Shown piece by piece: positions 27,929 through 38,083 of a DNA stretch of 64,000 nt. The position numbers were made by a program, and so were the translations under genes. The notes under the pieces were generated by a model. That model saw only the letters and a program-made list of their open reading frames with translations, had not been told where the DNA came from and did no database searches. How positions within the stretch are numbered: position 1 is the first letter of the stretch; each line of letters opens with the position of its first letter. The DNA is from Deferrivibrio essentukiensis (GTDB lineage: Bacteria; Chrysiogenota; Deferribacteres; Deferribacterales; Deferrivibrionaceae): contig NZ_JAJAFU010000001.1 in NCBI RefSeq assembly GCF_020480685.1, positions 1 through 64,000 on the forward strand, written 5' to 3'.

Positions 27929-29962
27929 ATGGGAATACCTGTATTGTTTGGTATCCACTGCCATCAGCCGGTGGATAATTTTAAAAATGTGGTTGATGAG
28001 ATAATTGAGAAAAGTTACAAGCCTTTTTTTGAAAAAGTTTTTCCACACAAGTGGTTTAAATTTTCGGTACATTTTAGCGGCTGGCTACTTAACTATATAA
28101 GGGTGAATTCCCCTGAAACTTTTCAGCTGATGAAGAAGCTTGCTAATGAGGGGAGAATAGAATTTTTTACGGGTGGTTTTTATGAGCCTGTGTTATCGGC
28201 TATCCCCAAAAAGGACAGAATAGGGCAGATAGCAAAACTTTCAATGTTTATAAAAGATTACTTTGGTCAAAAACCAAAAGGGTTGTGGCTGACCGAGCGT
28301 GTATGGGACCCTTCCATTATTCCTGATATTGCTGAATGTGGTGTTGAATATATGTTGGTGGATGATTACCACTTTCTTTCCGTCGGATTTCATAAAGACA
28401 GTTTGAATGGATATTTTCATACGGAGCAGGACGGATATTTAATGAAACTTTTTCCAATAGACCAAAAGTTAAGGTATTTTGTTCCTTTTAAGGAGCCTGA
28501 AGTTATACTGAATTATCTGAACGATGTTGAAAATAAGGGTGGCTATTGCGGTATATTGTTTGATGACGGAGAAAAGTTTGGCGTATGGCCTAAGACATAT
28601 GAGTGGGTTTATGAAAAAGGGTGGTTTGATAGATTTATGTCCCTTTTTGCAGACTCTGAGCATAAGTTTAAATTATATTCGGAGTTTGCCGAAAAAAATA
28701 GGCCGAATGGCTTTGCTTATCTTCCTCTTACATCTTATATGGAGATGGGGGAGTGGTCACTTTTTGCGGATAAATTTATAGAGCTTAAAAATCTTGAAAA
28801 TTTTCTAAAGACAACGGATTACAAAGATTGCATAGAGACATTTGTCAAAGGTGCAATATGGAAAAATTTTCTGGTCAAATATCCTGAATGCAACCAAATA
28901 CACAAGCGAACATTGAAGCTTTCCAAAGAAAACAAAGGGGATAATGAAAAATTGACAGACTTGATTTACAGGGCACAATGCAATGATGTGTTGTGGCACG
29001 GTATCTTCGGAGGGATTTATCTGCCAAATTTGAGGGATAATGCGTATAAATATATTATTGAGGCAGAATCGATAGTTGATTTAGACAAATCAAAAATAGA
29101 TAATATTTACGAAGAAGATATATTGATGGATGGTTACAGGCAAGTTGTAATTAACACAAAAGGATTAAAATATATTTTCAATACAGGTGTTGGGGCCGGT
29201 TTAATGTCCTTAGACTTGAAAAATTACGGACTAAATCTTCAGAATACAATAAGCAGAAGGTTTGAGGGTTATCATAAACAACTTTTGGACGACAGAAAAG
29301 AGGCAGTAGAGGATACCGGAATTAGCACAATTCATGAAATGAGTGTGGAGTTGTCTGAGGATGTGAAAGGTAAGATAGCTTTTGACTGGTACAATAGATA
29401 CTCTTTTATTGATCATTTTATTGAAGAGTATGATTTTAATGCGGTAAAAAGATGTGAATTTAAAGAATTGGGAGATTTTACTAATCAGCCGTTTGAATAT
29501 ACAATATCAAAAAATAATGTGAGATATTTTAGAGATGGTGGAGTTTATAAAAATGGAGAAAAACACAACACAACAGTTTCTAAATCTTTTAATGCAATAG
29601 ATAAAGGGATATCCTTTGAATACGAAATCGTTACAGATTATGGAAATATTTATTATATGCTTGAGTTAAATTTTCATTTTTTTGACAATGAAAAAGTTAC
29701 TTTAGATGGCAATTCATTTGAAGGTATATTTGACGGCAAGAATAAATATCTAATATGTTCAGAAAATCCAGAGCTTAAAATAGAGATAAATTTTAGTAAA
29801 AAAACTCCTATTGCTGCAATAGGATACAATGTAGAAACGGTATCACAATCTGAGTCAGGCGTAGATTTGACGTTGCAGGGGCTCAGCCTGAATTTTATAT
29901 TTAAAGTGGAAAAGGGGATTAAGTTTAATGGTGAACTTTTGTTTGAAGGGGGACAGTTTTGA
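27929..29962 (+). CDS. GH57 4-alpha-glucanotransferase
   Basis: A 677-residue cytoplasmic GH57 protein. GIHCHQPVDNF is near the N-terminus. Glu123 in WLTERVWDP and Asp213 in FDDGEKFG align with the nucleophile and acid of Thermococcus litoralis 4-alpha-glucanotransferase (Glu123, Asp214). The C-terminal half is the DUF1925/DUF1926 beta-sandwich of that enzyme. It rearranges maltooligosaccharides. GAGG precedes the ATG, seven bases after the amylase-like gene. Confidence 0.88.
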   Translation: MGIPVLFGIHCHQPVDNFKNVVDEIIEKSYKPFFEKVFPHKWFKFSVHFSGWLLNYIRVNSPETFQLMKKLANEGRIEFFTGGFYEPVLSAIPKKDRIGQIAKLSMFIKDYFGQKPKGLWLTERVWDPSIIPDIAECGVEYMLVDDYHFLSVGFHKDSLNGYFHTEQDGYLMKLFPIDQKLRYFVPFKEPEVILNYLNDVENKGGYCGILFDDGEKFGVWPKTYEWVYEKGWFDRFMSLFADSEHKFKLYSEFAEKNRPNGFAYLPLTSYMEMGEWSLFADKFIELKNLENFLKTTDYKDCIETFVKGAIWKNFLVKYPECNQIHKRTLKLSKENKGDNEKLTDLIYRAQCNDVLWHGIFGGIYLPNLRDNAYKYIIEAESIVDLDKSKIDNIYEEDILMDGYRQVVINTKGLKYIFNTGVGAGLMSLDLKNYGLNLQNTISRRFEGYHKQLLDDRKEAVEDTGISTIHEMSVELSEDVKGKIAFDWYNRYSFIDHFIEEYDFNAVKRCEFKELGDFTNQPFEYTISKNNVRYFRDGGVYKNGEKHNTTVSKSFNAIDKGISFEYEIVTDYGNIYYMLELNFHFFDNEKVTLDGNSFEGIFDGKNKYLICSENPELKIEINFSKKTPIAAIGYNVETVSQSESGVDLTLQGLSLNFIFKVEKGIKFNGELLFEGGQF

Positions 29963-30978
29963 CAGAGATGAGATATAATCCTTTAAGCGGTGAATGGATA
30001 TTGGTTTCGCCGGACAGAGGTGAAAGAGGTGATTATTTTGTTCATGAAAAGGATAATGACCATTTTGAACAATCAGGATGCCCTTTTTGTCCGGGCAATG
30101 AATCTCAAATAGGGAATGTTATATATAAAATAGAAGACAGAAAGATGTATTCAAATGAGCCTATTTTAAAGGTTATACCTAATAAATATCCTGTTTTTAC
30201 CGTTGAAAAAATTCCTGAGTCTTTTTCTGTGGGCCCTTATGATTATCATTCGACAGTGGGTGCTCACGAAGTCATAATAGAGAATATGAAACATTCACTC
30301 CCTCTTTATGAATATACAGAGCAAAATTGGGTTGACCTTTTTGAAACAGTTAAAGTGAGAGGATTAGACCTTAAGAATGACATAAGGATTAAATTTATAT
30401 CTTTTTTTAAAAATTACGGTTTTCTTGCGGGCGCTACAATGAAGCACTCTCATTCTCAAATAGTGGGGATGCCTGTAATACCCCACAGAATTACGGAAGA
30501 GCTTGAGAGGGGAAAAGATTTTTATGAAGAGAAAAACAGATGTATTTTTTGCGATGTTTTGAAATTTGAAAGATTTTCAGAAAGGGAAATTGTTACGACA
30601 AAATTTTTTAGTGCTTTTATCCCCTATGCTTCAAGGTATCCTTTTCAGCTTGACATATATCCGCTAAAACATGGACATGATTTTTTTTGCATTACAAAAG
30701 AAGAGAATTATGACCTTGCCGGGCTGTTTAAAAATATATTTGAAATATATCATAACGCTTTGGGAGATATACCATTAAACATCATACTTTACACATCCCC
30801 CTTAAATCTTGATGGTCCAACGGCTGATAAATTTAAATACATAAATCTTTTTTATCATTATCACATAAGGATAATCCCGCGAATTAACAAATACGGAGGG
30901 CTGGAGTGCGGTTATGGTCTTCATGTCAATCCTGTTCCCCCTGAAAAGGGAGCTAAAATATTAAAAGGTGAGATATGA
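29959..30978 (+). CDS. galT: GalT-like hexose-1-phosphate nucleotidylyltransferase
   Basis: A 339-residue HIT-superfamily GalT protein. The active-site motif is HSHSQ (residues 163-167). Two CxxC pairs (CPFCPGNE near residue 45; RCIFCDV near residue 195) probably bind zinc. A TTG start overlapping the previous stop is favoured because GGGGG lies at the right distance; an ATG nine bases later is possible. It normally swaps UMP between hexose-1-phosphates. In a glycogen operon with no galE, galK or glgC it may instead interconvert NDP-glucose and glucose-1-phosphate. Confidence 0.87.
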   Translation: MTEMRYNPLSGEWILVSPDRGERGDYFVHEKDNDHFEQSGCPFCPGNESQIGNVIYKIEDRKMYSNEPILKVIPNKYPVFTVEKIPESFSVGPYDYHSTVGAHEVIIENMKHSLPLYEYTEQNWVDLFETVKVRGLDLKNDIRIKFISFFKNYGFLAGATMKHSHSQIVGMPVIPHRITEELERGKDFYEEKNRCIFCDVLKFERFSEREIVTTKFFSAFIPYASRYPFQLDIYPLKHGHDFFCITKEENYDLAGLFKNIFEIYHNALGDIPLNIILYTSPLNLDGPTADKFKYINLFYHYHIRIIPRINKYGGLECGYGLHVNPVPPEKGAKILKGEI

Positions 30979-32393: not shown

Positions 32394-33125
32394 GTGAAGT
32401 TTGAACAGCTTAGCAAGAAAGAGCTTTATGCCAAAGCAAGAGAGCTTGGTATAAAGGGGCGAGGGAGGATGACCAAAAGTCAGCTTGTTAGTGCCATAGC
32501 TAATTTTTATAAAGCTGATGAGCTGCTACAAAGGTCTGCACCGGTTGATGGCATACATTTTTATCAAGTGGGATATGAGACTAAAGATGTAAGTGAAAAA
32601 AAAGAATTTGTGGCGCCTGAAACCAAACAACAGGAGTATGTTATCCCTGAAAAGTATGGTTTTGATTATGTATATGTTTTGCCTATAAATCCTATATCGG
32701 TTCATATCTTTTGGGAAGTTACGGAACAATCTTTAAAAAATTTTTCATATGAGTTTGGGATAAAAGAGCCAAAGCTTTGTATTAAGCTGATTTATGATGG
32801 CGGAGAATACATTATTAAAGATGTCGCAGATTTCGGAAGTTATTACTTTTCAAGTGAGTTTATTGTGAATAAAAAGGTTTGGGCTGAGATAGGCGTGCTT
32901 AATGAAGATGAGTTTTATGCCATTGCTGTCAGCAACGAAACAATAATCCCTTCAGACACTATTTCGGTAGAAGAGGGGGAGTTGTTTATGTTAGTCAAAG
33001 ATAATATTACCAAAATAATCAATATTTCCCTTGGCGGGGATGCAAAAGGGTTAGATAGCAACCTGATTGCGAAGGGATTATTAAACAATGTAATTTCTTC
33101 AAAAAAGTTTAGAGGGGAAAAATGA
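32394..33125 (+). CDS. DUF4912-domain protein with N-terminal Rho-N/SAP-like helix pair
   Basis: A 243-residue protein with a GTG start after AGGAGGGC. Residues 1-38 (LSKKELYAKARELGIKGRGR) look like a Rho N-terminal/SAP-type helix-extension-helix nucleic acid or protein binding module. Residues 80-210 (YVYVLPINPISVHIFWEVT) match DUF4912. Function unknown. Its last codon overlaps the GH57 branching enzyme gene, so it probably assists or regulates that enzyme or binds glucan. Confidence 0.75.
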   Translation: MKFEQLSKKELYAKARELGIKGRGRMTKSQLVSAIANFYKADELLQRSAPVDGIHFYQVGYETKDVSEKKEFVAPETKQQEYVIPEKYGFDYVYVLPINPISVHIFWEVTEQSLKNFSYEFGIKEPKLCIKLIYDGGEYIIKDVADFGSYYFSSEFIVNKKVWAEIGVLNEDEFYAIAVSNETIIPSDTISVEEGELFMLVKDNITKIINISLGGDAKGLDSNLIAKGLLNNVISSKKFRGEK

Positions 33126-34702
33126 AAACATATTGGATGTTGGTATTACATTCTCATTTGCCTTTTGTTAAACATCCTGAATACGACTATTTTTTGGAAG
33201 AACATTGGCTGTATGAGGCTATTACGGAATGTTACGCTCCGCTTCTGATGAATTTTGAAAAACTTTTGGATGAGGGGAGAGATTTTAATGTGACTATTTC
33301 ACTTACCCCTCCACTTTGCGAAATGCTCAGCGATAAGTTTTTGATGGACAGGTATCTTAAATATTTGGGCAGGACTTTGGAGCTTTGTGATAAAGAGGTT
33401 AATAGGACGAAAAATGAATTTGAATTTAACAGACTTGCTCAATTTTATAAAGAAAGAATTTCTTCAATAAAGAGATATGTTTTTGAACAGCTTGGTGGCA
33501 ATATTTTAAATGGTTATAAAAAATTTATGCACCTCAATAAAATAGAAATAATTACATGTGGTGCTACTCATGGTTTTTTACCGTTTATCAGTGTCAATGA
33601 AAAGGCTGTCAATGCACAGATAAAGATTGCGGTGGAATCCCATAAAAAACATTTTGGGATTCAGCCTAAAGGTATATGGCTTCCAGAATGTGCTTATTAC
33701 GAAGGGCTTGATAAGATTTTGGCGGAAAATGGGATAAAATATTTCTTTGTAGATACTCACGGTATTATTTTTGGTAAGCCAAAGCCTGTTTATGGTGTTT
33801 ATGCCCCTGTATTTACCCCTGAAGGGGTGGCAGCATTTGGAAGGGATGTCACTTCTTCAAGGCAGGTTTGGAGCTCAAAAGAAGGGTATCCTGGGGACTA
33901 CAACTATAGAGATTTCTATAGAGATGTGGGTTATGATTTGGATTTTGATTATATAAAGGATTATATTGTGCCTGACGGGACAAGAGTTTTTACGGGGTTA
34001 AAATATTATAAGATTACCGGTAACACGGAGCATAAAGAGCCTTATAATCCTGAAGTTGCATTTAACAGGACAATTGACCATGCAAGACATTTTGTTCACG
34101 AGAGGGTAAATTTTGCGGGAGAAGTTTCCAAATATATGGACAGACCTCCTCTTATTGTATCCCCTTATGATGCGGAGCTTTTTGGCCACTGGTGGTTTGA
34201 GGGGACAGATTTCATATATAATCTTTTCAGAGAGCTTTCATACAGGGATGATGTTATTTCAACTACGCCTATGAAATACCTTAATGAATTTCATACAAAT
34301 CAAATAGTTAAAGTAAACCCATCTTCATGGGGTGACAAAGGTTACTTCGAGGTATGGCTTAACGGGGCAAATGATTGGATATATCGCCACCTTGTGAACA
34401 TGAGCAATTTTATGACGGAAGCTGCGACCAAATTTGGTGATTCAACAGATAGAAATGTGATAAGATGTTTAAATCAAATGGGTAGGGAGCTACTACTTGC
34501 TCAAAGTAGTGACTGGGCTTTTCTTATGACGACCGGCACTGCAATAGAATATGCCGTAAGGAGGACAAAAGAGCATATTCACAACTTTTTGAGAATCCAC
34601 TCTATGTTGGAAAGTGGGGATATCGATATAGAGTATGTTTCTGCTCTTGAGTTTAAAGACAGTATTTTTTCAGACTTGGATTTGAGAAAGTTTTACAAGT
34701 AA
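33122..34702 (+). CDS. GH57 1,4-alpha-glucan branching enzyme
   Basis: A 526-residue GH57 protein with LHSHLPFVKHPEY at the N-terminus, nucleophile Glu189 in LPECAYYEG, acid Asp350 in SPYDAELFGHWWFEG and a C-terminal DUF1957 helical domain. This is the form of the characterised GH57 branching enzymes of Thermus and Thermococcus. It makes the alpha-1,6 branches of glycogen, replacing a GH13 GlgB. It is the last gene of the operon, followed by a strong terminator. Confidence 0.9.
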   Translation: MKTYWMLVLHSHLPFVKHPEYDYFLEEHWLYEAITECYAPLLMNFEKLLDEGRDFNVTISLTPPLCEMLSDKFLMDRYLKYLGRTLELCDKEVNRTKNEFEFNRLAQFYKERISSIKRYVFEQLGGNILNGYKKFMHLNKIEIITCGATHGFLPFISVNEKAVNAQIKIAVESHKKHFGIQPKGIWLPECAYYEGLDKILAENGIKYFFVDTHGIIFGKPKPVYGVYAPVFTPEGVAAFGRDVTSSRQVWSSKEGYPGDYNYRDFYRDVGYDLDFDYIKDYIVPDGTRVFTGLKYYKITGNTEHKEPYNPEVAFNRTIDHARHFVHERVNFAGEVSKYMDRPPLIVSPYDAELFGHWWFEGTDFIYNLFRELSYRDDVISTTPMKYLNEFHTNQIVKVNPSSWGDKGYFEVWLNGANDWIYRHLVNMSNFMTEAATKFGDSTDRNVIRCLNQMGRELLLAQSSDWAFLMTTGTAIEYAVRRTKEHIHNFLRIHSMLESGDIDIEYVSALEFKDSIFSDLDLRKFYK

Positions 34703-34727
34703 AAAAGGGGGATATCCCCCCTTTTTT
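34701..34727. terminator. Bidirectional terminator at the end of the glycogen operon
   Basis: AAAAAAGGGGG-ATAT-CCCCCCTTTTTT, starting in the stop codon of the branching enzyme. Symmetric A/T runs let it act on both converging transcription units. Confidence 0.92.
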
Positions 34728-34756
34728 GATAGTTGTTTTATTAGAAGCGACTTGCA

Positions 34757-35656
34757 TTACATACCTTTTCCACCGCCGCCGTGACCGCCGCCATTTCCGC
34801 CACTACCACCGCTACTACCACCACTGCCACCATTTCCATTGCTGCCACCGCTTCCGCTGCCCATTCCTGAGCTATCACCGTAGCCTGAACCCATATTACC
34901 GCCGTTTCCGTTTCCAGAGAGCCCCTTTGAAATATCGCTACTTTTTGCTCCCATTTGAAATCCGTTTTGCATATTTTGGGCTAATTGATTAGCATCTCTT
35001 GTTTTTGCCATAGTTTTAAACTGATTCCTTATTTCCGCAAGTTCACCTGCATTATAGCCTTTTTCGATTGCTTTTGTCATAGTTTTTTCTATCAGGTTTG
35101 ATTGCACTCTTGCCCTTGACATATCTTTTACGCATTCTGTTATTTCGGCAGCTAATTCAGGCTCACTTTTTAATTGACTGTGGGACATGATATTTTCCAT
35201 GGACTGTTTACTTATTCCTGCTGCCAAAGCATCGGCAATGTTACCCATTATTTTGCTTTTTGTTTGCTGATTAAAAGCCAATTGCTCCGTTAATTGTTTG
35301 GCATAGCTGTAACGTTCTGTGAGCTGATTAAGTGCATTTTCAAGCTGTGCTTCATTTGCCCTTTTTGCAAGCCCTTCCATTACCTTTTCAGCTAAAGGCT
35401 CAGCGGGCAAACCTGCCTGGTGAGCTTGAGCAATTTTGCTTAAAACTCTTACCTTTACTTCTTCTTGCATCTGACTCTGGACAACTGCATTATAGGCATT
35501 GAGCATAGTTTGGTTGTTAAGTCCTATGGAAAGATTGGTTTTTAGTTGCTCTTTTACCAGTGTTGTTGCTTTGGTTAAAAGTTCATTTTCGTTAGCTTGT
35601 GCAAATGTAATATTTGCTGTCACTGTGAGTATTAATACTATTAGCATTTTTTTCAT
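34757..35656 (-). CDS. Secreted helical protein with glycine-rich tail
   Basis: A 299-residue protein: signal peptide (MKKMLIVLILTVTANITFA), a long alpha-helical body (about 25-235) with loosely repeated units such as AGLPAEPLAEKVMEGLAKR and AAGISKQSMENIM, then a tail of about 60 residues made almost only of Gly, Ser and Asn ending GGGHGGGGKGM. I do not recognise a characterised family. ATG 35656 follows GGAGG; upstream in-frame sequence is the promoter. It has its own ECF-type promoter identical to that of the small glycine-rich gene at 37072-37323, so both are probable targets of the adjacent sigma factor. A surface or matrix role is inferred. Confidence 0.75.
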   Translation of the reverse strand: MKKMLIVLILTVTANITFAQANENELLTKATTLVKEQLKTNLSIGLNNQTMLNAYNAVVQSQMQEEVKVRVLSKIAQAHQAGLPAEPLAEKVMEGLAKRANEAQLENALNQLTERYSYAKQLTEQLAFNQQTKSKIMGNIADALAAGISKQSMENIMSHSQLKSEPELAAEITECVKDMSRARVQSNLIEKTMTKAIEKGYNAGELAEIRNQFKTMAKTRDANQLAQNMQNGFQMGAKSSDISKGLSGNGNGGNMGSGYGDSSGMGSGSGGSNGNGGSGGSSGGSGGNGGGHGGGGKGM

Positions 35657-35677
35657 AGCTACCTCCTTCTGATATAT

Positions 35678-35704
35678 AAACTGCGGTACGGAGAAAAGGT
35701 TACA
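35678..35704 (-). promoter_or_regulatory. ECF-type promoter element (copy B)
   Basis: On the minus strand TGTAACCTTTTCTC, then seven bases, then CAGTTTATA. The 14-base upstream block and the spacing are identical to the element at 37352-37378. The AACC-TTTT core is typical of ECF -35 regions. It overlaps the end of the lipoprotein gene and lies 22 bases before the glycine-rich gene start. Confidence 0.75.
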
Positions 35705-36017
35705 TATCAAATATGCAGTTGTAACCTCCAAAATCGTCATATTCGATTAATGGGCAGTCCGCCTTTATTAAGCCTGTTTCATCGGTAAAGAAATATTTAA
35801 ATTGGGATGCTTTTTTCACTTCATAATAATATCCGAAACTTGTTTTACTCATTTTGTGAGGGGTATATCCGTCCAAACTGTAATGGAAAGTCGGCTCTGA
35901 CTTATTTTTTAAAAAGAGGACTATTTTGTCCGTATCAATCTTAATGCTGTGGGTGGAGCACCCAGAAAAAAGTCCTGCTATAATAAATGATAGGATTAAT
36001 AAGTAGGTTTTATTCAT
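35700..36017 (-). CDS. Lipoprotein consisting of a single CBM48-like (E-set) domain
   Basis: A 105-residue protein with a lipoprotein signal (LIIAGLFSGC; acylated Cys about residue 20). The mature part aligns along its length with the CBM48 domain of the anti-sigma protein encoded just upstream: strands FHYSLDGYTPHKM, GYYYEVKK, FKYFFTDETG, and the end YDDFGGYNCIFDM against QDDFGNINSVLEV. The Asn-Trp of the glycan-binding site is missing, so binding may be lost or changed. It starts three bases after the anti-sigma stop and is part of the sigma operon. Confidence 0.72.
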   Translation of the reverse strand: MNKTYLLILSFIIAGLFSGCSTHSIKIDTDKIVLFLKNKSEPTFHYSLDGYTPHKMSKTSFGYYYEVKKASQFKYFFTDETGLIKADCPLIEYDDFGGYNCIFDM

Positions 36018-36020
36018 TTG

Positions 36021-36578
36021 CTATACCTCCAAAACGGAATTTATATTTCCAAAGTCATCCTGCTCTATAAAAGTGGATGTGGGATCAGCCAACACTTGAC
36101 CGTCAGCAATTATGGCATATTTGTGTTCCCCTTTGGTAAGAGGGACAGTTATTTCCCAATAGTTGGAGTTATTTATTCTTTTCATCGGGATTTTATGCCA
36201 ATTTGTAAATGTCCCGGAGAGCTCTACATTGCTTGCACTGTCGTTGTAAATTACAAATCTATATTCTTTTTGAATGTTATTTTTGCTAACAGCTTCAGGT
36301 TTATTCGCAGTTATTTTGCTCCCTAAAAATGCTAACCCTATGAAAAAAAGTGCAGCTACTGCCAAATGAATAAACTTGCGTGATCCCCTATATTTTTCAA
36401 CATGAAATTGCGGAGGGGTCTTTTTATTGAGTTTATCCCTAAATAATATTTCAGAGTCCAACATCTCTATAGTTTCAGAATAAAAGGTATCATCCACTTT
36501 TACGTTGACTACAAATTCCCTTTTCTCAGGCAGCGTAAGCTCATCATCTATAAATTGGCTTATTAAAATTTCTTTCAT
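36021..36578 (-). CDS. Membrane anti-sigma factor with extracytoplasmic AMPK-type CBM48 domain
   Basis: A 185-residue protein in three parts. Residues 1-67 are charged and helical (ISQFIDDELTLPEKREFV), like the start of anti-sigma domains but without the zinc-binding His/Cys set. Residues about 70-88 are one membrane segment (HLAVAALFFIGLAFLG) with positive charge on its N-terminal side, so the C-terminus should face outward. Residues 105-185 match the glycogen-binding domain of AMPK beta: VELSGTFTNWHKIPM, GEHKYAIIADG, DPTSTFI and DDFGNINSVLEV. One binding Trp is kept (TNW); the second is absent. The gene follows the sigma gene by one base, with GGAGG inside the sigma 3' end. Confidence 0.8.
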   Translation of the reverse strand: MKEILISQFIDDELTLPEKREFVVNVKVDDTFYSETIEMLDSEILFRDKLNKKTPPQFHVEKYRGSRKFIHLAVAALFFIGLAFLGSKITANKPEAVSKNNIQKEYRFVIYNDSASNVELSGTFTNWHKIPMKRINNSNYWEITVPLTKGEHKYAIIADGQVLADPTSTFIEQDDFGNINSVLEV

Positions 36579-36579
36579 G

Positions 36580-37029
36580 CTAACCTCCTTTTAAAGTATT
36601 TTGTATCTTTTTTCTTGCCCTGAAAATTTTTACCTTGATATTAGAGACTGAAATCCCGGTAATAGCGCTTATTTCATCATATTTAAGCCCATCTACCGCG
36701 CTCATAAGGAATAATTTTTTTTCTTCGTCATCAAGCAGCGCCAAAAGAGCATCGGCTTCCATTGAATTATCACTACCTGTTTGTTCATATGATAATGTTA
36801 TATTTTCAGTATTAATATGTTTTTTATTTCTATTGTATTCATCTATAAATAAATTTTTGCCAATCTTGTAAAGGAGCATAGGGGAAAGCTTATCTTTATA
36901 TTTTTTTAATATTTTGAAGTAGGTTTCTTGGAATATATCATCAGCAAGGGCACTATCTCTTGTCAGAGAAAGGAGGTAATGGTAGAAACCTTTTTTCGTT
37001 TGATCAAAAAAAACCTGAAATTTATCCAT
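36580..37029 (-). CDS. ECF-family RNA polymerase sigma factor
   Basis: A sigma70-family protein of about 149 residues with only region 2 (SALADDIFQETYFKILKK) and region 4 (SAVDGLKYDEISAITGISVSNIKVKIFRARKKI). ATG 37029 gives a usual N-terminus (MDKFQVFFDQ) but has no clear ribosome site. A GTG at 37065 lies inside the terminator stem of the gene before it and is less likely. Being followed by a transmembrane anti-sigma gene with one base between is the normal arrangement of a membrane-signal sigma factor. Confidence 0.88.
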   Translation of the reverse strand: MDKFQVFFDQTKKGFYHYLLSLTRDSALADDIFQETYFKILKKYKDKLSPMLLYKIGKNLFIDEYNRNKKHINTENITLSYEQTGSDNSMEADALLALLDDEEKKLFLMSAVDGLKYDEISAITGISVSNIKVKIFRARKKIQNTLKGG

Positions 37030-37045
37030 AAATTGTAGTGTAATA

Positions 37046-37068
37046 TTAAAAGGGTGGCAGTCCACCCT
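37046..37068 (-). terminator. Hairpin terminator/attenuator between the small glycine-rich gene and the sigma gene
   Basis: On the minus strand GGGTGG-ACTG-CCACCC followed by TTTT. It lies between the stop of the gene at 37072-37323 and the sigma factor start. No separate promoter for the sigma gene is evident, so the sigma operon is probably fed by read-through past this hairpin. Confidence 0.7.
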
Positions 37069-37071
37069 CTT

Positions 37072-37323
37072 TTATCTGCTTGTGGCTCCAAACCCTGTGC
37101 CATCTTTTGGCTGAGGCTGAGTGCCGTCTCCATACCCTTTGCCGCTGCCGTCAAGAGCTCTGTCCCCTGTCTTAAATCCGTTTTGAGTCGAGCTTCCACT
37201 ATAGCTGTGCATTGAGGCTTTTCCGTTTGAGCTCCCTTTTGAGCCCCCTTTCCCTTTTGCAAAAGAGTTTACTGAAGTAAATGTTAACAAAACTACAACC
37301 ATTAAAGCAATCGTTTTTTTCAT
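37072..37323 (-). CDS. Small secreted glycine/serine-rich protein
   Basis: An 83-residue protein with a clear signal peptide (MKKTIALMVVVLLTFTSVNSFA) and a mature part rich in Gly, Ser and Lys (GKGGSKGSSNGKASMHSYSG; TGDRALDGSGKGYGDG). No family is recognised. GGAGG precedes the ATG. It is directly upstream of the sigma factor gene and carries the same promoter element as the larger glycine-rich gene. It is probably an abundant exported product of the sigma regulon. Confidence 0.75.
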   Translation of the reverse strand: MKKTIALMVVVLLTFTSVNSFAKGKGGSKGSSNGKASMHSYSGSSTQNGFKTGDRALDGSGKGYGDGTQPQPKDGTGFGATSR

Positions 37324-37351
37324 TTTTTACCTCCTTGATTTGATATCTATA

Positions 37352-37378
37352 AAACTGTGCAAAAGAGAAAAGGTTACA
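37352..37378 (-). promoter_or_regulatory. ECF-type promoter element (copy A)
   Basis: TGTAACCTTTTCTC, seven bases, CAGTTTTATA on the minus strand, 28 bases before the small glycine-rich gene. Block and spacing equal those of copy B at 35678-35704. As this gene leads into the sigma operon, the arrangement is consistent with autoregulation by the sigma factor. Confidence 0.75.
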
Positions 37379-37444: not shown

Positions 37445-38083
37445 ATGAGGAAACTTTTTCACCTGATTATAGTTTGTATGTTGATTATCTCAATTTATGG
37501 GTGCAGTGCACTTAAAACAAATGTCAACGATGCAACAGACCTTGTTTTTTCGGCAGATACGGGTGTACTCCTTATGGCTGCACTGATAGAGATGAATACT
37601 AATTTTTCATCCCTAATATACGATAAAACAAAAGCAAAATTTAAAGACTACTCCTTTGTCGCAAATAAAAAAATCGAGCTTAAAAAAAGATTTTTTGTGA
37701 TTCCTCCAAAAAATTATTTGGGAGAATACGATTTTGAGACAAAGAGACTGGTGGAAAATGTTATCGTTTTAAATAAGCTTGGGGAAGTGACACAGGAAGC
37801 CGAATTGGCCGATTATGTAATAATATTAAATTTTGATGAGTCTATTACAAAAGTTTTCGGGGAAAATTTTATCAGGGAAGAGATAACTGTTTTTGATAAA
37901 AATGATGCTATTGTTTCCCATATGGCAGTTACCGTTCTGTCAAAAAGTGACAGCAATTTTTTTTATTTTCCCGGCAAAGCGGCAAGACCTGTATCATATC
38001 TTAAAATCAAAGGTTTAGAATATTTGATAGATAAAACTTTTCCAAAAGTCTTCGATATGAAAAAAGGGGGGAAAGATGCTTAA
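37445..38083 (+). CDS. Putative lipoprotein, first gene of the flagellar operon
   Basis: A 212-residue protein with lipoprotein signal IIVCMLIISIYGCSA. The body is soluble and mixed alpha/beta with no family that I recognise (contains DYSFVANKKIELKKRFFVIPPKN and ADYVIILNFDESI). It follows a sigma54 promoter and GGAGG and overlaps the FlgF gene by eight bases, so it is made with the flagellar rod. An outer-membrane or ring-assembly role is an inference from position. Earlier in-frame codons lie inside the promoter. Confidence 0.65.
   Translation: MRKLFHLIIVCMLIISIYGCSALKTNVNDATDLVFSADTGVLLMAALIEMNTNFSSLIYDKTKAKFKDYSFVANKKIELKKRFFVIPPKNYLGEYDFETKRLVENVIVLNKLGEVTQEAELADYVIILNFDESITKVFGENFIREEITVFDKNDAIVSHMAVTVLSKSDSNFFYFPGKAARPVSYLKIKGLEYLIDKTFPKVFDMKKGGKDA

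Follow-up and report, generated by a model that had tools for sequence, protein, structure and literature searches.

The cassette and its products

This analysis concerns a five-gene cassette on the minus strand at positions 34757-37378 of the window, the 64,000-nucleotide stretch of Deferrivibrio essentukiensis DNA (assembly GCF_020480685.1, contig NZ_JAJAFU010000001.1, positions 1 to 64,000) that was examined as a whole. The genes are co-directional and, in order of reading, encode a glycine-rich protein (GR1), an extracytoplasmic function (ECF) sigma factor, a membrane protein proposed to be its anti-sigma factor (ASF), a lipoprotein (LIP) and a second glycine-rich protein (GR2). The cassette very probably comprises a regulatory switch together with its targets. 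The features of the locus are as follows.

37352..37378, minus strand: predicted promoter P1, TGTAACC-N16-GTTT, preceding GR1-sigma-ASF-LIP
37072..37323, minus strand: GR1, 83 amino acids, signal peptide, Gly-rich, C-terminal end GYGDGTQPQPKDGTGFGA
37051..37068, minus strand: GC-rich hairpin between GR1 and sigma, AGGGTGGACTGCCACCCT then TTT, resembling an attenuator or 3' stabilizer
36580..37029, minus strand: ECF sigma factor, 149 amino acids from ATG 37029 (161 amino acids with GTG 37065)
36021..36578, minus strand: ASF, putative membrane anti-sigma factor, 185 amino acids; helical N-terminus (1-55), transmembrane helix (69-87), AMPK-beta-like CBM48 ectodomain (104-185)
35700..36017, minus strand: LIP, lipoprotein; diverged CBM48-like domain, conserved Cys pair
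35678..35704, minus strand: predicted promoter P2, TGTAACC-N16-GTTT, before GR2 and overlapping the LIP stop codon
34757..35656, minus strand: GR2, 299 amino acids; signal peptide, helical-repeat domain (about 23-247), disordered Gly tail (250-299)
34700..34728, strand unassigned: bidirectional terminator-like stem between GR2 and a convergent alpha-glucan operon

The sigma factor probably starts at ATG 37029 rather than GTG 37065, because its orthologues start there and the GTG falls within the hairpin. The GR2 start is ATG 35656, correcting 35740. Pfam assigns to the sigma factor a Sigma70_r2 domain (26.4 bits, 6e-6) and a Sigma70_r4_2 domain (57.1 bits, 1.4e-15), both above cut-off, and no region 3. 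The score against TIGR02937 is 63.6 (cut-off 42.9), and the best scores are with ECF models. Region 4 matches occur at five places in the genome, four of them over the cut-off, with the cassette sigma factor among them.

The ASF reading frame follows that of the sigma factor after a gap of one base, and the two frames overlap in many relatives. The protein matches AMPK1_CBM, the carbohydrate-binding module (CBM) of AMP-activated protein kinase (AMPK) beta subunits (PF16561; 5e-14, 52.7 bits against a cut-off of 26.8), as well as CBM_48 (3e-9), and it contains one transmembrane helix. By the positive-inside rule, the N-terminus is predicted to be inside and the C-terminus outside in 29 of 31 orthologues, with two ties and no reversals. 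The AlphaFold model built from the 31-row alignment (mean pLDDT 84) consists of three N-terminal helices, the transmembrane helix at residues 68-86 and a beta-sandwich that resembles AMPK-beta CBMs in a Foldseek search (1z0m, E 4e-8, target TM 0.86). Gene order, transmembrane topology, the three-helix N-terminus and the presence of zf-HC2 domains in distant homologues at like loci all favor an anti-sigma identity. In those distant CBM48 membrane proteins, zf-HC2 scores above the Pfam cut-off in two of the five tested; among the N-termini of the 31 closer orthologues (tier 1), weak, sub-cut-off matches are found to zf-HC2 (7/31) and RseA_N (1/31). These results support an ECF/anti-sigma pair with a CBM48-like domain outside the cytoplasm, in which the modelled helices of ASF would bind the sigma factor.

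LIP carries a signal peptide with the lipobox FSGC-S, and a lipobox is present in 27 of 30 orthologues, the remaining three reading frames having been called from a late start. LIP has no Pfam match of its own; its profile and that of ASF match each other, mostly at about 1e-7 to 1e-11, and LIP is therefore read as a second, diverged CBM48-like domain. Its conserved Cys pair sits near the positions of the DP and NS motifs of ASF. In the distant cassettes L096, L098 and L102, a small CBM48 protein encoded upstream of the sigma factor has W100 (AMPK-beta numbering) in all three cases and W133 in two of three; it is a possible LIP counterpart that retains more of the sugar site.

The GR1 ending GDGT..P.DGTG.G is kept in many orthologues. 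GR2 is modelled by AlphaFold as about 13 helices (pLDDT >90 across residues 30-240) followed by a disordered Gly tail, and its invariant residues lie in a K-x2-EG-x2-K and an A-x-AAG motif. Foldseek comparison of GR2 with solved folds gave no PDB match at E<1e-3, the top matches being mostly designed helical repeats. No curated family was matched by GR1, GR2 or LIP in searches with curated models, including Pfam for GR2 and LIP. Overall, the gene calls and the Pfam, AlphaFold and Foldseek results agree with the anatomy given in the initial annotation, which had described a two-region sigma factor, a CBM48 module on the single-pass membrane protein that follows it, a position of this module outside the cytoplasm and a lipoprotein with a CBM48-like domain.

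Promoters, regulon and conservation of the gene set

P1 and P2 share TGTAACC-N16-GTTT, with one copy before each Gly-rich gene. A relaxed form of the motif occurs 50 times in related cassette loci, as compared with three occurrences of a reversed control. The strict search yielded 40 sites, which cover 31 of 34 loci and in most cases precede the sigma operon; their consensus is TGTAACCTTT-N12-CGTTATA, in which the letters TGTAAC and GTT are imposed by the search itself; the base C precedes GTT in 33 of the 40 sites. The motif has the form of an autoregulated ECF-type promoter (AAC in the -35 element, a spacer of about 16 bp and a short -10 element), consistent with predicted promoter activity at P1 and P2. 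At five Desulfobacterota loci (L033, L036, L037, L029, L034), the GR1-like genes are displaced or inverted, and the motif still stands in front of them. The initial annotation had named both Gly-rich genes as targets of the sigma factor, and this assignment is now well supported by the common, conserved sigma-type promoter predicted before them.

The GR1-like proteins of the same five loci are built from repeats of GPGDGTGNxGxGPxDGTGxG-type units, making a metal-binding or matrix protein possible.

Three matches to the motif were found in this genome, two of them at this locus, and the reversed control gave two. In four other relatives, a stricter form of the motif occurs once per genome. The sigma factor therefore appears, on this genomic evidence, to be dedicated to its own cassette. 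A wide regulon was considered and rejected, as the genome-wide promoter search returned the cassette and matches at about chance level. In a near relative, four identical copies of TGTAACCGTTTCGTGAATTGTTTGTTT (G012:C1 391515, 1124295, 1206812 and 1676494) are probably a repeated element and not sigma promoters.

A GC-rich stem-loop lies between GR1 and sigma in all 16 Deferribacterota loci examined that have an upstream GR1 (dG -12 to -21). Its letters vary between lineages and its structure is retained; at L008 it forms a complete terminator, with a separate promoter for sigma. The hairpin may set the level of GR1 above that of sigma and ASF, via termination or protection of the GR1 message.

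Orthologues of ASF are present in 24 of 51 sampled genomes of the window's phylum, and full-length ASF occurs in 15 of 296 sampled genomes from the phylum of Desulfogranum; the carriers include Calditerrivibrio, Denitrovibrio, Desulfogranum, Desulfatibacillum, Desulfoluna, Syntrophaceae and Desulfobulbaceae. The order sigma-ASF-LIP-GR2 is conserved nearly throughout the related loci. The ASF profile also picks up more distant CBM48 membrane proteins (tier 2), and a gene for a GR2 domain is adjacent at all 15 such loci that were read. A sigma gene is found at 14 of the 15. The sole tier-2 locus among those read at which no sigma gene was found nearby is L093 / L122, which encodes a CBM48 membrane protein and a GR2 domain.

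The same association is recovered in the reverse direction. A GR2 model trimmed of its tail finds homologues in 33 of the 296 genomes, and 32 of these have a CBM48 match no more than about 1.5 kb away; the 33rd is at a contig end, adjoining a sigma gene. An artefact of Gly-rich composition was rejected as the source of this link, since removal of the tail from the model left the result unchanged and produced no false matches among 1311 open reading frames. GR2 is accordingly described, from these gene neighborhoods, as a helical-repeat domain tied to CBM48 anti-sigma factors well beyond this family, a linkage that the initial annotation had overlooked. The sigma factors of tier-1 and tier-2 cassettes form separate groups with a mean identity of 24%, so the GR2/CBM48 pairing has outlived a large divergence of the sigma factor. 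The Gly tail of GR2 is optional, as several GR2 proteins of distant loci have no tail, and in some distant loci GR2 is placed between sigma and anti-sigma, a position that is usual for a signalling part. Because its homologues adjoin CBM48 membrane proteins in 32 of 33 cases, GR2 is probably not just a target but also a partner of the ectodomain.

A candidate envelope switch and its alternatives

The results suggest a self-contained, autoregulated ECF switch with an ectodomain coupled to GR2, an explanation that, taken whole, we favor with modest confidence. ASF would reside in the inner membrane; on the cytoplasmic side its N-terminal helices would hold the sigma factor, and on the periplasmic side its AMPK-beta-like domain would be exposed. 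Upon a signal, the sigma factor would be freed, probably through proteolysis of ASF; M50 proteases, for which site 2 action is possible, are encoded in the genome. The freed sigma factor would bind TGTAACC-N16-GTTW promoters and transcribe its own cassette only (GR1, sigma, ASF, LIP and GR2), the hairpin behind GR1 would allow more GR1 than sigma and ASF to be made, and the GR1, LIP and GR2 products would be exported. The periplasmic partner of the ectodomain would most likely be a cassette protein, chiefly the helical domain of GR2 and possibly LIP in addition. In that arrangement, the switch would monitor how much exported Gly-rich protein is at the envelope, or in what state, which amounts to feedback and not to the detection of glycogen. 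The gene set, the predicted topology, the common promoter motif, the apparently local regulon and the GR2/CBM48 linkage are what comparison of the loci shows, and from them we infer the binding of sigma by ASF, the proteolysis of ASF, the contact between GR2 and the ectodomain, and the direction of feedback.

Several points weigh against this explanation. Operon linkage is no proof of physical contact, and GR2 could be mere cargo. The N-terminus of tier-1 ASF has no zinc motif and matches no Pfam anti-sigma family at cut-off. Finally, part of the sugar site is conserved, as described below, leaving room for some sugar binding. A role for GR2 as ligand of the ASF ectodomain, or as its partner, is accordingly tentative, with the doubts slightly the heavier. 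It is still more speculative that the cassette represents an unnamed, widespread class of ECF switch in which the CBM48/AMPK-beta ectodomain has given up glycan binding and become a receptor for GR2.

The initial annotation had proposed that the CBM48 ectodomain binds an alpha-glucan of the envelope (glycogen or maltodextrin), freeing the sigma factor. The genuine AMPK1_CBM/CBM48 fold and the alpha-glucan operon adjoining the cassette agree with this model. In the structure of AMPK-beta1 with cyclodextrin, we take the positions that contact the glucan to be W100, K126, W133, L146 and N150. In tier-1 ASF, W100 and N150 are invariant and position 146 is an invariant Phe (31/31 each), which is also compatible with a sugar ligand; K126 and W133 are missing in 31 of 31, and the canonical AMPK glucan site is for this reason not intact, with other ligands possible. 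Furthermore, the glucan operon is found next to the cassette in this genus only (L003, L027), none of these neighbors appearing at the other loci compared, and the genome-wide motif search found no cassette-type promoter upstream of it. Three genomes that are each 99% complete (G010, G014, G016) have the cassette and no real GlgA, G014 and G016 giving partial, sub-cut-off matches only; conversely, in families f6 to f8 many genomes encode GlgA and lack the cassette. Bacterial glycogen is cytoplasmic, whereas the ectodomain is predicted to lie outside. Contact residues, genus-limited neighborhood and GlgA co-occurrence thus leave alpha-glucan sensing unsupported, and we regard the proposal as very improbable.

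A second model has a different polysaccharide (capsule, exopolysaccharide or lipopolysaccharide) as the signal for the ectodomain or LIP, with the Gly-rich proteins as co-deployed matrix proteins; it is unlikely but deserves more weight. It is consistent with the CBM fold, with the retention of W133 in 8 of 18 distant CBM48 domains and with the existence of RsgI anti-sigma factors that sense polysaccharides through CBM3 or CBM42 (PMC12203970). LIP lacks Trp at both AMPK contact positions 100 and 133; positions 100 and 126 are aromatic in 29 of 30 orthologues, and position 133 is in 19 of 30, although the alignment of LIP to AMPK behind these counts is loose. However, comparison of the flanks, made only with the window's own neighbors, revealed no association with polysaccharide genes, and the constant partner is GR2, which is tail-less in several families. 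Alternatively, GR1 and GR2 might be purely structural targets without a signalling role, the signal being general envelope stress read by proteases. The sigma-type promoter before both genes, the structural look of the Gly-rich tails and the M50 proteases in the genome fit this view, which leaves unexplained the conservation of the GR2 domain, nearly always beside CBM48 anti-sigma factors, across very different sigma groups, the tail-less GR2 proteins and the GR2 genes between sigma and anti-sigma; we consider it rather improbable. The joint travel of the switch and one Gly-rich protein across many bacteria points to a sensor pair of a new kind, and not to plain detection of glycogen.

Related systems and neighboring genes

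The closest parallels lie in other sigma systems and in AMPK itself. In RseA/RseB and other class I systems, an operon encodes an anti-sigma factor and an exported partner under autoregulation, as appears to be the case here; GR2 and LIP differ in matching no Pfam family, that of RseB included. AMPK beta subunits share the CBM48 fold and the conserved W100 and N150, whereas ASF differs at K126, W133 and L146 and is bacterial, membrane-tethered and predicted to be extracytoplasmic. The RsgI anti-sigma factors of Clostridium thermocellum carry CBM3, CBM42, PA14, GH10 and other sensors (PMC12203970). As predicted for ASF, they are membrane anti-sigma factors with an external domain of carbohydrate-binding type, and the targets of SigI/RsgI systems are genes for secreted proteins (PMC12203970). 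RsgI has a distinct N-terminal domain and a periplasmic domain, whereas the present cassette combines an ECF sigma factor, a CBM48/AMPK-type domain that has lost key glucan residues, an additional lipoprotein and the probable partner GR2; no RsgI family was among the Pfam and curated-model matches of the cassette, and its sigma factor scores best with ECF models. In Streptomyces SCO4117 (ECF52), a periplasmic carbohydrate-binding domain is fused to the sigma factor (PMC8999054). ECF regulation is thus joined to such a domain across the membrane in both systems, the sensor being on sigma in SCO4117 and on a separate anti-sigma here.

The initial annotation knew of no sigma system that senses glycan through CBM48. 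This stands for CBM48 itself, as no paper combining CBM48 with an anti-sigma factor was found in the open literature (which is not proof of absence), and it must be narrowed insofar as glycan-sensing anti-sigma factors with other CBM types are known (PMC12203970). The analysis predicts a complete circuit, from the sigma and anti-sigma factors and the promoter sequence to the targets and a candidate ligand, spread across Deferribacterota and Desulfobacterota, for a module without a description in the literature searched. GR1 and GR2, for which no curated description was found, gain a regulatory context, and the module offers a clear test of whether bacterial CBM48 folds act as protein receptors. 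If the proposed feedback is correct, the cell would gauge the Gly-rich material of its surface or matrix through a GR2-receptor switch and adjust production.

The initial annotation had placed the cassette next to an eight-gene alpha-glucan operon, and the five genes checked (GH57, GalT-like, GlgA, DUF4912 and a GH57 branching enzyme) are of this kind. Within the operon, positions 32394-33125 of the window encode a Rho_N + DUF4912 protein with GlgA on one side and the GH57 branching enzyme on the other, and the GalT-like uridylyltransferase (29959-30978) has an apparent TTG start and overlaps the preceding gene. On the other side of the cassette, a lipoprotein-like gene with no assigned family (37445-38083) lies directly before flgF and stays with flgF/flgG within the same genus.

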